Assembly (NCBI GenBank): GCA_025054715.1
Contig: JANWYH010000002.1
Span: 372,001 to 436,000, forward strand
Reading direction: 5' to 3'
Length of the DNA: 64,000 nt
Origin: Pyrinomonadaceae bacterium
Lineage (GTDB): Bacteria; Acidobacteriota; Blastocatellia; Pyrinomonadales; Pyrinomonadaceae
Positions 3,088 through 27,785 of this stretch are shown here, piece by piece; position 1 is the first letter of the stretch, and each line of letters begins with the position of its first letter. Both the position numbers and the translations under genes were made by a program. The notes under the pieces were generated by a model. The model did no database searches and was not told where the DNA came from. It saw nothing but the letters and a program-made list of their open reading frames with translations.

Positions 3088-3705
3088 TCAAACCTCACCA
3101 ACCTTTTCAAATAAATCTACAAGTCTTATTCCTTCTTCTACTTCTTCAGATTCAGCGAAATCAAGATTTAACTGTTGTCGCTGACGAGCGGACGGTTTTA
3201 ACTTTTTGCGAGTTTGACGTTCTGTTTTAATGGGTTTAACTTCTGCAGTTTTGTTTTCCTTTGTGAAGACTTCATGCTCTTTGCTTTCTGCAAATGGAAA
3301 ACTTCTTTGTGGCTCTATTTTCTCATCAACTTTAACGTTACTAGCAAGACCTAAGTCCGAAGTTCTCTGTAACGTCAAAAGATAGAAGGTTAATGAAAAA
3401 ATTATGATAAGCGCAGAAGCGAAAGCTATTTTGACAAGTGGGTTAGAGAGCGTAATTGCTTCAAGTAGTTTTTTCCAGAAAGCAGGTTTTTCGATTACAG
3501 GAATTGAGATTGGCTCGAATTCACTATCAACCTGCTCGCGTAAGGCTGAAAGACTCACACGAAGAGTTTTGAACATCTCTAGCTCTTCTGAACAAATCTG
3601 ACACTCTGTCAGATGAGCTTCAAAAGCATCTTTGTTTTCCATTTCATCGTATATATAAGAAACCAAATTATCTGAGAAAACGCATTTTTGTTCTTTCATA
3701 ACCAA
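3088..3705 (-). CDS. Membrane anti-sigma factor with zinc-binding motif
   Basis: A 205-residue protein with an N-terminal HxxxCxxC zinc anti-sigma motif (His31, Cys35, Cys38), one membrane helix at about 92-112 and a Lys-rich periplasmic tail. This is the layout of ECF anti-sigma factors: the cytoplasmic N-terminus holds the sigma factor and the outer part senses a signal. It starts 3 nt after the sigma gene and ends one base before the Spy-like gene, so the three are almost certainly co-transcribed. Its cognate sigma is inferred from position. Confidence 0.85.
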   Translation of the reverse strand: MVMKEQKCVFSDNLVSYIYDEMENKDAFEAHLTECQICSEELEMFKTLRVSLSALREQVDSEFEPISIPVIEKPAFWKKLLEAITLSNPLVKIAFASALIIIFSLTFYLLTLQRTSDLGLASNVKVDEKIEPQRSFPFAESKEHEVFTKENKTAEVKPIKTERQTRKKLKPSARQRQQLNLDFAESEEVEEGIRLVDLFEKVGEV

Positions 3706-3708
3706 ACC

Positions 3709-4281
3709 TCAGACAGCTGAAATTTTCTCTTCCAGCTTCATTTTTAATTGTTTAAGAGCCAGATAAAGACGGCTTTTTACAGTGCTTACTGGTAGGTTGA
3801 GCGTTTCGGCTATCTGTTGGAAAGTCATATCTTCAAATTCTTTCATAATCACAACCTGCCTTAGCTCAAGCGGTAACGATCTAACGGCTTTTCTTACCAA
3901 CTCAGCTCTTTCTTTTGTTTCGACCAATTCGGGTGGCGAAACTGCTTTTTTCGAAGCTGCCGTAGATAGACTCGGTTCACTTTCGATATTGATTTCTTCG
4001 GCAGAGTTTTTCTTTGACCGCATTTTGGTCAGGCATTGGTTTAGAGCTATTCGGTGAAGCCATGAGGAAATTTTCGCTTCGCCTCGAAAACTTTGTAAGC
4101 TTCTGTAAGCTAGCATAAAAGTCTCCTGAGTTACATCTAGTGCTTCTTCCTTACAGCCGAGCATGCCATAGCAAAGAGCAAAAATTTTTCGCTCCCATCG
4201 CTTAACTATCTCGCCGAAAGCTTCATTATCTCCATCGAGAGATTTTCTAATGAGTTGCTCATCGGTTAAATTCGCCGTCAT
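3709..4281 (-). CDS. ECF-family RNA polymerase sigma factor
   Basis: A 190-residue ECF sigma factor. Region 2 is clear (DVTQETF at 49-55, then the FRGEAKISSWLHRIA stretch), and region 4 near the C-terminus has the EFEDMTFQQIAETLN helix-turn-helix followed by VSTVKSRLYLALKQL. Length is normal for the family. It heads an operon with an anti-sigma factor and a Spy-like periplasmic protein, which points to envelope stress control and probably autoregulation. I did not find a convincing ECF-type GGAAC/GTC promoter upstream. The start is ATG after a weak AAAGG. Confidence 0.93.
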   Translation of the reverse strand: MTANLTDEQLIRKSLDGDNEAFGEIVKRWERKIFALCYGMLGCKEEALDVTQETFMLAYRSLQSFRGEAKISSWLHRIALNQCLTKMRSKKNSAEEINIESEPSLSTAASKKAVSPPELVETKERAELVRKAVRSLPLELRQVVIMKEFEDMTFQQIAETLNLPVSTVKSRLYLALKQLKMKLEEKISAV

Positions 4282-4409: not shown

Positions 4410-5891
4410 ATGCATTTGAAAAAGAGGGGTAGTGGTGTTTTGCTCCATGTGACTAGTTTGCCTTCTAGATACGGAATTGGCGATCTAGGAAAATCAGCTT
4501 ATGAGTTTATTGACTTTTTAGTCGAAGCGAAACAAAGTTACTGGCAGGTGTTGCCGATAAATCAGACCGGCTACGGAGATTCGCCTTATCAATGCCTTTC
4601 TGCTTTCGCTGGTAACGTAAATTTGATTTCGCTCGATAAACTTGTTGAGATTGGCTTGTTGGAGCAGATCGGAGATATTCCTGATTTTCCCGACAAGGTA
4701 GATTTTGTGCTTGTGACAGACTTCAAGAAGAAGTTCTTAAGAAGTGCCTTTGAAAATTTCAAGCGGCAATCGAATTTTACTCAATCTTTTGAGGCTTTTT
4801 GTTATGAGAACGGCTACTGGCTAGAAGATTATGCTCTTTATCGTGCTATAAAATCTTCACAAGGTGAGCGCTCGTGGCAGGATTGGTCTGATGATTTAAG
4901 GCTTCGAGAAGATAGAGCGATTGAAAAGGCACGTAAAGAGCTTTCTGAAAGTATTCTTGAACAAAAGTTTTACCAGTTTATATTTTTCAAACAATGGAAG
5001 CAATTAAAAGCCTATGCTAACCAAAAGGGGGTGAAGATAATAGGTGATGTTCCCATATTTGTTGCTTTAGATTCTGCAGATGTTTGGTGTAATCAGAGGC
5101 AGTTTAAGCTTAATGAAGACGGTTCTCCGAAAGTTTTAGCTGGTGTTCCACCGGATTACTTTTCTAAAACAGGGCAACTTTGGGGGAATCCTATTTACAA
5201 TTGGGACAGGATGCTTTCGGATAGTTTCTCTTGGTGGCGAAGTCGTATCGGATTTAATCTTCAAATCTTTGATGTATTACGAATTGACCATTTTCGAGGA
5301 TTCGTCGCTATCTGGGAAGTGCCGGCAGCTGAAACAACAGCTGAAAACGGCAGATGGGTCGAATCTAAAGGGTTTGAGTTGTTTTCTGTTCTAAAGCAAA
5401 GTTTTGGTGAATTGCCAATAATTGTTGAAGATTTAGGGTTTATAACACCTGAAGTTGAAAAGTTAAGAGATGCTTTCGGATTTCCCGGTATGAAGATTCT
5501 CCAATATGCTTGGAGTTCGGATGCAAAAAATTCGTATTTGCCGCATAACTATTCAAAAAACTGTGTCGTTTATCCCGGCACACATGATAACGATACCGTT
5601 GTTGGTTGGTTTTCTTCTCTGGCAAGTGATAAGGAAAGGGAGTTTTGCTTAAAATATCTTAATTCTGATGGCAGTCAGATTCACTGGGATTTAATTAGAG
5701 CTTCGCTTTCTAGTGTTGCTTTTCTTTCGATTTTTCAGATGCAGGATTTATTGGGCTTGGGTTCTGAGGCTAGAATGAACATTCCGGCCACTAAAACAGG
5801 AAACTGGCAATGGAGATGCGAGAACTTTCCAAAAACGGTCGCTCAAAAACTAGGTGAAATGACAGAAATTTACGGAAGATGTCAATCTTAA
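4410..5891 (+). CDS. malQ: 4-alpha-glucanotransferase (amylomaltase)
   Basis: GH77 enzyme that transfers alpha-1,4-glucan chains, used in maltodextrin and glycogen metabolism; cytoplasmic. The N-terminus KRGSGVLLHVTSLPSRYGIG is diagnostic. The catalytic residues sit in VLRIDHF (nucleophile Asp), IIVEDLG (acid Glu) and GTHDNDT (transition-state Asp). About 493 residues is the usual bacterial length. The ATG at 4410 lies 16 nt after an AAAGGGG site; an in-frame TTG at 4404 has better SD spacing and is a real alternative. The 3' end overlaps the convergent SurA-like gene by 4 bases. No glycogen genes are adjacent. Confidence 0.95.
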   Translation: MHLKKRGSGVLLHVTSLPSRYGIGDLGKSAYEFIDFLVEAKQSYWQVLPINQTGYGDSPYQCLSAFAGNVNLISLDKLVEIGLLEQIGDIPDFPDKVDFVLVTDFKKKFLRSAFENFKRQSNFTQSFEAFCYENGYWLEDYALYRAIKSSQGERSWQDWSDDLRLREDRAIEKARKELSESILEQKFYQFIFFKQWKQLKAYANQKGVKIIGDVPIFVALDSADVWCNQRQFKLNEDGSPKVLAGVPPDYFSKTGQLWGNPIYNWDRMLSDSFSWWRSRIGFNLQIFDVLRIDHFRGFVAIWEVPAAETTAENGRWVESKGFELFSVLKQSFGELPIIVEDLGFITPEVEKLRDAFGFPGMKILQYAWSSDAKNSYLPHNYSKNCVVYPGTHDNDTVVGWFSSLASDKEREFCLKYLNSDGSQIHWDLIRASLSSVAFLSIFQMQDLLGLGSEARMNIPATKTGNWQWRCENFPKTVAQKLGEMTEIYGRCQS

Positions 5892-6559
5892 GGCTCTACG
5901 AAAATTTCTATTTCAGCTCTTTGCTTTGCTTCTTGGAGAAACCTATCAATGCTTTGTTCAACCTTCATTTCTGTTAAGGAGAGGTTTATATCTTGTTTGA
6001 CTTTCTCAAATGCAGGGACAAGAAGGTTTGGGTTTCTACGACGGAAATTTGGAACAAAGGTTTCTTGATAGTATTTTTTCTCTTCTTCTTCTGTTACTAT
6101 AACGAATGATCGAAAGCGAAAATCAATGTATTTTTCGATTTGGATGCGCTCTTCTAAGATTTTTCGAAAGTAGTCGTCGTTTATTGAAGAAAATCCTACC
6201 GATCGGATTCGTTTTTCAAATTCAAAAACTGACTGAAAACGGCTTATTATTCGTCCAATTTCTGCCCTTACTTCTTCATCGGAAGGGGTGTTTTGTGGGA
6301 TGCGCTTTGCTTCTAGAAGAAAGAGTTTTTGTTCTATCAAAAGCGAAAGAGCTTCTCGCAAGTCTTCCTGTTTAGGTGGATTGAGCGGTCGGTCAGGCGA
6401 AAGCGCTATTTGCCAAAGAAGATCTGAATAAGTAATTATTTCCGCTGGTTCTACGGGACTGTATCTTACAGTAGCCACTATCCAATCAACTGCTTTTTGT
6501 CCTTCCGTTCTAAGGAGAGCGCTTGTAAGAATTAGGGTTAGAAGAAAAACTCTACGCAC
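5888..6559 (-). CDS. SurA-N-like exported protein without PPIase domain
   Basis: A 223-residue protein with a signal peptide (residues 1-20) and a region resembling the SurA/PrsA N-terminal chaperone domain: a DWIVATV start, a helix with LIEQKLFLLEAKRI near 95, then paired long helices. Full SurA proteins carry one or two parvulin domains; none is present here. It probably acts as a periplasmic chaperone-like factor, perhaps for outer-membrane proteins, but this is inference. It is transcribed divergently from the reductase at 6634. Confidence 0.6.
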   Translation of the reverse strand: MRRVFLLTLILTSALLRTEGQKAVDWIVATVRYSPVEPAEIITYSDLLWQIALSPDRPLNPPKQEDLREALSLLIEQKLFLLEAKRIPQNTPSDEEVRAEIGRIISRFQSVFEFEKRIRSVGFSSINDDYFRKILEERIQIEKYIDFRFRSFVIVTEEEEKKYYQETFVPNFRRRNPNLLVPAFEKVKQDINLSLTEMKVEQSIDRFLQEAKQRAEIEIFVEP

Positions 6560-24986: not shown

Positions 24987-25307
24987 CTATCTTTCAGGGA
25001 TAGAACCGGAAATTTTTTTGCGAGTCGTCTCTCCAGTTTCAATAACTGGAATACCTTTTGATACTTCACTCGCTGGGCGCGGAATGACGTGAACGCTTAC
25101 CACTTCACCGATTCGTCTTGCTGCTTCAGCGCCTGCTTCAACAGCCGCTTTAACCGCTCCAACTTCACCGCGAACTATGGCAATAACGAGTCCGGCATCT
25201 ATCTTTTCGTAGCCGACAAATCTGACACTTGCTGTTTTTACCATAACATCTGCAGCTTCTATCATCGCCACTAGACCACGGGTTTCTACCATTCCTAATG
25301 CTTCCAT
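24987..25307 (-). CDS. BMC-H microcompartment shell protein (KIDAG pore)
   Basis: A 106-residue single BMC domain (Pfam 00936 type): [10 protein letters not shown] start, [34 protein letters not shown] and HVIPRP. Such proteins form hexamers that tile the shell; the loop at IDAG lines the central pore. It differs from the paralogue at 27343, which has IGAG. It is the last gene of the four-gene BMC operon, 6 bases after the zinc-ribbon gene, and has only a weak SD (GTGAAG), so translational coupling is likely. A 20-residue tail follows the domain. Confidence 0.92.
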
Positions 25308-25313
25308 AGAACT

Positions 25314-25670
25314 TCACTTAATTAAAATCATCAAAAAAAGAGCTAGCAAAGAAATCAAGAGGGAAGCTATTGTGAAAATTAAATATATCCTCTCGCTTGC
25401 GTAAGTCTTAGTAACTTTCTGTAATTTTCGTTCGGGTCCCGAGATTACGAGTCTTGTTGAAGGTTTTGGTATTGGTTTATCTTCTTGCTTTTTATTTTCG
25501 TTACTGTCTTTTTCAAAAGACGGCAAGAACGGAAATTCCTGGAGTTTTGTGGTCTTATTAGGGTTTTCAGAGAAATCATTTCTTGTGCCGCAGTTATGAC
25601 AAAAAAGAGCATTAGGTCTTAACCTCGTGCCGCATTCTTTGCAAATTTCTAGAGCAGTTTTTTGAGACAT
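25314..25670 (-). CDS. Zinc-ribbon protein with C-terminal membrane helix
   Basis: About 118 residues: an N-terminal double CxxC zinc ribbon (CKECGTRLRPNALFCHNCGT, residues 10-29), a charged linker, and a C-terminal hydrophobic helix (about 93-117) that looks like a tail anchor. I do not recognise a characterised homologue. The ATG directly follows the aldehyde dehydrogenase stop (TAAAATG), so it is coupled to it, and BMC-H follows after 6 bases. Its place inside the BMC operon suggests a shell-associated or membrane-tethering role; this is inference. Confidence 0.75.
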   Translation of the reverse strand: MSQKTALEICKECGTRLRPNALFCHNCGTRNDFSENPNKTTKLQEFPFLPSFEKDSNENKKQEDKPIPKPSTRLVISGPERKLQKVTKTYASERIYLIFTIASLLISLLALFLMILIK

Positions 25671-25671
25671 T

Positions 25672-27339
25672 TTAGATTCGAGCAAAAACTTCCTTTTCTT
25701 CGCCTAAGTCTCTCGCAGCAGGCGTTATAATCGTTTTCGAGTGTATGTAGATTTTCTCACCTTTTTCAATTGCGAGCTTGACGTCGCTTTCGCTTACAAA
25801 ATCAACTGCCTTTTGCTTTGCTCCATTCTGCTCTGAGGGCGGTTTTATTTCGTGAATAATTGTCTTAACAGGGCTTTCTGCTGCGACATTAGTAGGTTCT
25901 TCAGCTCTAATTTCAAGCTTTTCAGCAAGGAATTTATCTACTATTTCAGCTATTTTTTCACGGGTTGCCGATTTCGGTTTGATTTGAACTACTTTTGTTA
26001 CGGCTCTCGTTTCAAATGCTATCCGTTTTATGTCAAGCAGGTGAATTGGTGAAATGTTATCGCTTGTTACGTTTCCACCCCAAGAGCCGCAACCTAAAGT
26101 CATCGAAGGTGGAAGATCAGTAGAAAATCCTATTGCGCCGTGAGTTGTTGGTGTGTTGATACAGATTCTTGCTGCTGGCATCTGCTCACCGAATCTGATT
26201 GCTGCTAGTCTATCTCTGGTGTGCATCCCTGCGGTATGCCCCATTCCACCGAATTGCAAAACTTGAAGACATCTTTCGGAGGCTTGCTCTAAGTTATCAA
26301 CAACAAAAAAAGCAAGTGTCGGCGAAAGCTTCTCGATCGACCACGGATAATCTCTTCCGACTCCTCCACAATCAGCTATCAAACATCTCGTTCCGTTAGG
26401 TATTGAGATGCCTGCTAGATTCGCAATGTATTCTGCTGACTTTCCGACAATTTTAGGATTTAGTGTTCTCTGTTCGGTAACTAAAACTTTTGCAACTTGA
26501 TCAGCTTCCAATTCAGTTAGAAAATGTCCTCCTTGGCGCCTGAACTCTTCGCGTACTTCTTTTGCTATAGAAGATTCGACTATGACGGACTGCTCGGAAG
26601 CACAAATCGTTCCATTGTCAAAGCAAGTTCCAGTCAAAATGTCGGCAACTGCTTTTTGAATATCGGCAGTTTTTTCGATATAAACTGGCACGTTACCGGG
26701 ACCGACGCCAAATGCAGGTTTGCCAGATGAATAAGCTGCTCTAACGAGTCCTATACCTCCGGTTGCAAGTATCACGGCTGTCTTTTCATGTTTCATCAAA
26801 GCTTCCGTAGCTTCGATGTTTGGATTTTCAAGGCATTGTATGGCGTCAGGCGGTAAGCCCTCTTTAATCGCAGCTTCTTTCATTACGCGTGCCGTTTCAG
26901 CAATAGAACGAGCAGCCGAAGGATGAGGCGAAAGGACAATTGTGTTTCTGGATTTTATGGCTATTATTATTTTGAATATCGTCGTCGAGGTAGGATTCGT
27001 GGAAGGAATAATTGCCGCAATTACGCCTCTGGGCGATGCAATTTCAATTACGCTTCCTTTGTCTGAAATAACGCCTACAGTTTTTAAATTTTTAAAGTGA
27101 TTCCAAACATCTTCTGCTGCAAAGCGGTTTTTTTCTTTTTTATCTTCTGGTTTGCCAAAGCCAGTTTCTTCATGAGCCATTCGGCCAAGTCTTGTTGATT
27201 CCGCTAGCGCAATTTTAGCCATTGAGTCACAGATGCGGTCAATTTTAGCTTGATCAAACTTGGCTACAATGCTTGAAGCTAGATGAGCAGCTTCGACCGC
27301 GTCATTAACCTCTTTATTGAATGCTTTGGCTTCCGTCAT
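25672..27339 (-). CDS. CoA-acylating aldehyde dehydrogenase with EutQ-like C-terminal module
   Basis: A 555-residue enzyme converting an aldehyde, CoA and NAD+ to acyl-CoA. The dehydrogenase part (1 to about 450) has [30 protein letters not shown], and the catalytic Cys246 in [11 protein letters not shown], as in AdhE-N, EutE and PduP. A variable linker follows, then residues about 506-555 with [13 protein letters not shown] and [12 protein letters not shown], which resemble the N-terminal segment of EutQ. PduP-like enzymes usually carry a short N-terminal encapsulation helix instead. It is flanked by shell genes with gaps of 1 and 3 bases, so it is clearly the cargo enzyme. Confidence 0.92.
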
Positions 27340-27342
27340 TCC

Positions 27343-27744
27343 TTATTCTTTCTTTCTGGACTTGCTTTTATCATTGGTCATTATACTCTCATTTTCAGCT
27401 TCACCTGAACTTAGCTGGCGCATTTCACCTGCCTGAAGAGCTTGTTCATCAGGGCTATATCTGACTGCACCACCCTTGGGTAGGCACTTCTCAACTTCAT
27501 GATGCGGTCGCGGTATGACGTGAACACTTATAAGCTCGCCGACACGCCGCGCCGCTGCTGCACCAGCATCAGTAGCAGCTTTTACAGCTCCTACATCTCC
27601 ACGGACAAAAACCGTCACATAACCTGCACCGATGTATTCTTTTCCGATGAGTTGCACATTCGCCGCTTTTACCATAGCATCTGCTGCTTCGACGGCTCCG
27701 ATAAAACCTTTTGTCTCAACCATTCCAAGTGCTTCAAAAGACAT
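27343..27744 (-). CDS. BMC-H microcompartment shell protein with long C-terminal tail
   Basis: About 133 residues. The first ~95 form a BMC-H domain very like PduA/EutM ([51 protein letters not shown]). A tail of about 38 residues, Gln/Ser/Lys-rich and ending in SKSRKKE, extends beyond it and would lie on one face of the hexamer. The ATG at 27744 was preferred over TTG at 27750 because GAGGGG lies 8 nt before it. First gene of the BMC operon, preceded by a clear promoter. Confidence 0.93.
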
Positions 27745-27785
27745 CTTCAAAGCCCCTCAATGAAAAATTTTCTCTACGTTCGACG

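Follow-up and report, generated by a model that had tools for sequence, protein, structure and literature searches.

The C-terminal 43 residues of a CoA-acylating aldehyde dehydrogenase (ALDH), encoded in a 64,000-nucleotide stretch of a Pyrinomonadaceae genome (hereafter, the window), belong by sequence comparison to a small portable domain of BMC proteins, which also forms residues ~4 to 45 of EutQ. The enzyme quite probably unites a C-terminal encapsulation helix and a shell-docking domain on one chain, and the docking role is transferred from published experiments on EutQ. The literature searched (mostly open-access papers, with bioRxiv-held preprints outside the search) yielded no paper that treats the module as a domain common to several proteins or reports it on ALDHs of the ACI BMC type. 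Core-shell tethering is known for few BMCs, and a domain that recurs on linkers (EutQ and probably PduM) and on enzymes would give a common rule. Such a module would serve as a small tag by which engineered shells could be loaded, and its sequence as a probe for unlinked BMC cargo that gene neighbourhood missed. In addition, the function of the ACI BMC in soil Acidobacteriota would become directly testable.

Organization of the aldehyde dehydrogenase and its locus

The features of the locus are listed in Table 1. The genes are ordered on the minus strand as BMC-H, ALDH, zinc-ribbon protein, and BMC-H. The score of the ALDH against TIGR02518 (acetylating acetaldehyde dehydrogenase) was 567 bits, which is under the 620-bit equivalog cut-off, and the solved chains nearest to it were 5j78 and 3k9d. 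The acetylating core was closest to the TIGR02518/AdhE-type group, which places the enzyme among the type I BMC aldehyde dehydrogenases. This catalytic core comprises residues 1 to ~445 and contains Cys246, the presumed catalytic cysteine by analogy with ALDH and AdhE enzymes. The closest homologues came from Pyrinomonadaceae/Blastocatellia MAGs. The zinc-ribbon protein, which has a hydrophobic C-terminal stretch and whose gene separates the second BMC-H from the ALDH, is unusual for a BMC operon.

Table 1. Features of the ALDH locus and of the unlinked RpiB-DeoC pair (window positions unless a contig is named)
Feature	Position	Strand	Evidence or remark
CoA-acylating aldehyde dehydrogenase, type I, EutE/AdhE-like, 555 aa	25672..27339	(-)	Pfam Aldedh E=2.7e-29; TIGR02518 567 bits; closest solved chain 5j78
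Cys246 codon, presumed catalytic cysteine	26602..26604	(-)	C246 near-invariant in alignment A2
Putative C-terminal encapsulation helix, residues 459-476	25912..25965	(-)	Predicted helix 460-475 in model; conservation; position
Disordered variable linker, residues 477-512	25804..25911	(-)	pLDDT <50 for 475-508; length and sequence vary
SPVKTIIHE, short conserved linker motif, residues 489-497	25849..25875	(-)	Present in most Pyrinomonadaceae homologues
EutQ-N-like module, residues 513-555, beta-alpha-beta-alpha-beta	25675..25803	(-)	Profile comparisons, decoy test, predicted fold
BMC-H shell protein	27343..27750	(-)	PF00936 E=5.4e-29; 3 bp upstream of ALDH
Second BMC-H of the same satellite locus	24987..25307	(-)	PF00936 E=5e-29
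Zinc-ribbon protein, hydrophobic C-terminus	25314..25685	(-)	PF13240 E=2.3e-7; likely start ATG at 25670
RpiB (N-terminal module) and DeoC (EP-like N-terminus)	G000:C11:169761-172695 (L129 ~3262-3948 and ~5330-6196)		About 2 kb apart

A sequence-only reading of the window had placed a EutQ-like segment, separated by a flexible linker, at residues about 506 to 555 of the ALDH. Its coordinates were exact, with residue 506 starting at 25824 and the stop codon at 25672-25674, and the flexible linker was borne out by the low confidence of the model (Table 1) and by homologues that differ greatly in linker length and sequence. The motif SPVKTIIHE stands out in this otherwise variable linker and is possibly a further short binding motif. 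The module was kept in 19/19 sequences of alignment A1, with 15 invariant columns. In a first scan, all 18 acidobacterial ALDH homologues had the tail, and a BMC-H gene lay within the fetched stretch of each of these 18 tailed loci. Among the loci fetched for the Acidobacteriota search, 30 encoded ALDHs, which showed 49-100% identity to the query ALDH over the catalytic core.

Type I BMC ALDHs bear an encapsulation peptide (EP) at the C-terminus (PMC8217296). Every tailed homologue kept the putative helix 459-476, and tail-less Neobacillus ALDHs have their C-terminal helix region at the same place in the alignment. Its hydrophobic moment gave no significant amphipathicity. Because this predicted helix occupies the usual EP site of type I BMC ALDHs, the module itself is not considered to be the encapsulation peptide.

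Relationship of the module to EutQ and other BMC proteins

The likeness of the tail to the N-terminus of EutQ was confirmed by profile comparison. In hhalign, the profile from the ALDH tails alone (alignment A3) aligned with EutQ residues 4-41 (E=1.9e-5) and with EutT residues 1-41 (E=1.8e-5). The similarity to EutQ was significant over the core [IV]xxxD[IV]xxAxxxGxxI...ITPxARD. An HMM built from the ALDH tails alone was run on a set of 15 Eut proteins from E. coli plus 6000 shuffled decoys; EutQ ranked first (18.3 bits) and EutT second (16.7 bits), and the best decoy reached 13.6 bits. In single scans of 22 ALDH tails against 18,950 NCBIfam models, TIGR02536 was matched by 15 tails, EutQ by 7, EutT by 4, and PduM by 1, the last weakly (E=0.036). 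Three other NCBIfam families received one weak match each (E about 0.08). The PduM C-terminus (residues 112-153 of 153) was matched by related modules, taken from Bacillota and from RpiB proteins, with a best E of 2.1e-5.

Beyond the sequence-only reading, the module is not a EutQ-specific piece but a beta-alpha-beta-alpha-beta domain common to many BMC proteins. In EutQ of the Salmonella/E. coli eut operon, the homologous region (1-45 of ~230) is N-terminal on a cupin domain, and a flexible tether and a helical part that binds cargo come after it, whereas the ALDH has the reverse order, with EP helix, tether, and C-terminal module. The ALDH is not a EutQ, because it has an ALDH core and gave no match to the cupin (PF06249) acetate-kinase domain. 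In EutT, the homologous segment (E. coli 1-41) is N-terminal on a cobalamin adenosyltransferase, in contrast to its C-terminal place in the ALDH, and no role for it was found in the literature examined. The best NCBIfam match of the ALDH tails, the C-terminus of TIGR02536 (164-205 of 207), belongs to a separate protein that has a flavoprotein-like body and no ALDH, and the members found here also bear an N-terminal EP-like helix. PduM, which is module-like at its C-terminus to the related modules and only weakly so to the ALDH tails, has an N-terminal signal sequence and contributes to core-shell joining (PMC9132943, PMC12108088).

The carriers of the module were diverse. In Bacillota, most were EutQ N-termini; the others included PduL, at its C-terminus (L066, L083, and L086), and TIGR02536-like flavoproteins with an EP-like N-terminus and a C-terminal module (L077, L088-L090, L027, and L028). 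One type I ALDH from Bacillota (L080, G232:C56) begins with a EutQ N-terminus, consisting of the module and an H3/H4-like helix, and is by its domain order an independent fusion in the opposite orientation. In Acidobacteriota, the module was borne by a class II aldolase (L047), DeoC (L051 and L134-L136), and RpiB (L049, L129-L133, and L138-L142). Further carriers were RpiB-like proteins of ~250 aa whose N-terminus is EP-like (L048 and L137). L048 and L051 combined an EP-like helix with the module. In Neobacillus, the ALDH of the same type was tail-less and a separate protein with EP and module was encoded about 1 kb downstream; as the genes are laid out, the module is arranged in trans in Neobacillus and in cis in the Pyrinomonadaceae ALDH.

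An AlphaFold2 prediction from 55 sequences gave the module as a compact beta-alpha-beta-alpha-beta fold (mean pLDDT, 93.5; pTM, 0.73), in which helices alternate with strands, whereas H1/H2 of EutQ were described as helices by its authors. The sole residues invariant across the carriers lay in the TPxA turn, namely its T, P, and A. A Foldseek search of the PDB with the module model gave no match at E<=0.001, and none of the solved chains searched by sequence carries the module. The best structural likeness, to the IF2/eIF5B C1 subdomain (TM, 0.6-0.67; VIA Z<=4.8), was taken as a common beta-alpha-beta arrangement. Designed TIM barrels were the best sequence matches among solved chains; they shared only a short repeated helix and were attributed to chance. 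No separate model for the module was present in Pfam or NCBIfam. Pfam gave chance-level matches such as SH3_1 (E=0.056), and a weak match to E3_binding (PSBD) covered only the TPAARDRARELG helix (L051 residues 86-102) and was rejected as a local resemblance.

Next, the distribution of the module was compared with that of shell genes. The tail profile matched 70 of 199 Acidobacteriota genomes, comprising 70/92 with PF00936 shell genes and 0/107 without (Fisher test, 1.4e-34, with significance inflated by relatedness). Occurrence of the tail on non-BMC ALDHs, which had been named beforehand as evidence against a BMC role, was thus observed in none of the 107 shell-negative Acidobacteriota genomes. 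In Bacillota (n=299), a broader profile at E<=1e-3 matched 61/87 BMC-positive and 0/212 BMC-negative genomes, where relatedness likewise inflates significance. Fisher values overstate significance here because related genomes are not independent. The broader profile included E. coli EutQ and EutT, so that its EutQ matches are partly by construction; it was built without PduL, the flavoproteins, or the ALDH fused at its N-terminus. Overall, genomes bearing the module mostly had BMC shell genes as well, the exceptions being two genomes with module-bearing RpiB (G056 and G079).

Proposed shell docking and competing explanations

The module corresponds to H1/H2 of EutQ, for which experimental data are available. 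Residues 1-99 of Salmonella EutQ were enough to send GFP to Eut BMCs (PMC12487888). When residues 9-41 (H1/H2) were deleted, the shell parted from the cargo and the truncated EutQ remained with the cargo; when residues 62-99 (H3/H4) were deleted, EutQ left the cargo and remained with the shell (PMC12487888). In NMR, the EutC EP shifted EutQ residues 63-99 only, and residues 2-62, including the module, were unshifted (PMC12487888). EutQ without its first 100 residues lost EutM binding in vitro (PMC4827028). The EutM Q64K substitution also abolished EutQ binding in vitro.

By analogy, the enzyme would consist of three parts, namely, a catalytic core, the encapsulation helix 459-476, and the module on a disordered tether. 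The helix would probably condense the ALDH with other EP-bearing cargo, and the module would probably dock on the inner shell face or on an extension of a shell protein. The ALDH would thus anchor itself in cis, with the EP in the core and the module on the shell, whereas EutQ, with its shell-binding H1/H2, tether, and EP-binding H3/H4, performs the same task as a separate linker, as PduM probably does. The cargo-targeting role that the earlier reading had suggested for the tail may accordingly be kept in the sense of shell docking, as judged from the EutQ experiments, but was dropped in the sense of an encapsulation peptide, for which the separate helix 459-476 is the candidate. The residue equivalent to EutM Q64 is R in all three BMC-H proteins of this genome, and D57 is replaced by E in one of them. 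Because the Q64 position is R, the contact between module and shell cannot match that of EutQ and EutM exactly.

Other roles of the module were weighed against the same evidence. The module could be a cargo-cargo adaptor that binds core enzymes or their EPs and condenses the core with no shell contact. Its presence on many cargo enzymes (ALDH, PduL, DeoC, RpiB, and class II aldolase) is in line with such a role, as is the behaviour of PduM, whose C-terminus is module-like and which stays with the cargo, not the shell, when PduB1-37 is missing (PMC9132943). However, the NMR data map EP binding to residues 63-99 of EutQ, outside the module (PMC12487888), and EutQ without residues 62-99 departs from the cargo and goes with the shell, so that an adaptor role is considered unlikely. 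The use of the C-terminal segment itself as the encapsulation peptide, with helix 459-476 as part of the linker, would suit the expected position of the EP at the chain end in the ALDH family and the insignificant amphipathicity of that helix. We regard it as very improbable: the module is predicted as a folded domain, unlike a single EP helix, the tail-less Neobacillus homologues end in the helix region that aligns with 459-476, and an EP-like helix occurs together with the module in L048 and L051.

A regulatory or cofactor-handling domain, whose link to BMCs would reflect only the common metabolic setting of its enzymes, is also improbable. EutQ, EutT, PduL, ALDH, DeoC, and RpiB are all enzymes, and two genomes in which no shell genes were detected have a module-bearing RpiB. 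Nevertheless, these carriers have no substrate or cofactor in common, and the module is found at either end of the chain, behind linkers; the invariant T, P, and A of the turn form no binding-site pattern, and BMC assembly is disturbed when the matching segment of EutQ is deleted (PMC12487888). Finally, the identity between the module and EutQ is only about 25-30% in pairwise alignment, as might be seen if their similarity were due to chance or low complexity. At the level of homology, this is refuted by the decoy test, the profile comparisons, the NCBIfam ranking, and, in both phyla, the co-occurrence of the module with shell genes, and we give it almost no weight.

The ACI locus and the unlinked RpiB-DeoC pair

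The genome (G000; 2.45 Mb) has its main BMC locus on another contig (C20), where a third BMC-H, three BMC-P proteins, a class II aldolase with an EP-like C-terminus, and a 99-aa protein with an EP-like N-terminus are encoded. With an acidobacterial host, a BMC-P triplet, BMC-H, and a pfam00596-type aldolase in the main locus, and the ALDH on a satellite locus, it is of the ACI BMC type of Sutter et al. 2021, which is already known from the description in PMC8217296. The passages on this type in that source share the class II aldolase with an EP-like C-terminus, the BMC-P triplet, BMC-H, and the satellite ALDH; those passages make no mention of the tail module or of unlinked RpiB and DeoC. A PduL-type phosphotransacylase (PF06130) was not found in G000, and the acyl-CoA from the ALDH must therefore be recycled by another enzyme.

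The broad profile detected a second carrier in this genome, an RpiB with an N-terminal module, which is encoded near a DeoC on contig C11 (Table 1). The pair is unlinked to shell genes, none of which was found on C11, and RpiB and DeoC are candidates for cargo of the ACI BMC that has gone unnoticed. The second carrier and DeoC were <=5 kb apart in 20/24 BMC-positive genomes compared. DeoC with an alignable N-terminal extension was found in 40/53 tail-positive genomes having DeoC versus 2/44 BMC-negative genomes (Fisher test, 1.5e-13, with significance inflated by relatedness), where the cut-off for an extension, query residue 40, was set once the matches had been viewed, and the count excludes the weakest DeoC matches from BMC-negative genomes. 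In G056 (L131) and G079 (L130), the module-bearing RpiB adjoined a DeoC with an EP-like N-terminus and no PF00936 shell gene was found; either shell genes may be missing from these assemblies or the module may serve elsewhere too. Since the BMC catalogue covered genes lying no more than 12 ORFs from a shell gene, an unlinked RpiB-DeoC pair would escape it.

DeoC and RpiB (pfam01791 and pfam02502) are common to all SPU BMC subtypes. In this genome they are present on C11, not in the BMC locus; an SPU-like working of the ACI BMC is possible, and SPU membership is not claimed. The pair suggests that ACI BMCs would process deoxyribose phosphate, with DeoC supplying acetaldehyde to the ALDH; the aldehyde may alternatively come from the class II aldolase encoded in the main locus. 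We tentatively propose, while leaning slightly against it, a wider reading in which the module would be a general BMC docking domain (EutQ, EutT, PduM, PduL, TIGR02536 proteins, DeoC, RpiB, class II aldolase, and ALDH) and a probe for shell-distant cargo, and in which the ACI BMC, to which no signature enzyme has yet been assigned, takes in DeoC and RpiB as a deoxyribose-phosphate (DNA-salvage) metabolosome.

A Rex-type redox-sensing repressor gene (L007 16422-16997) was located directly upstream of the main ACI locus, which suggests NADH-responsive control.
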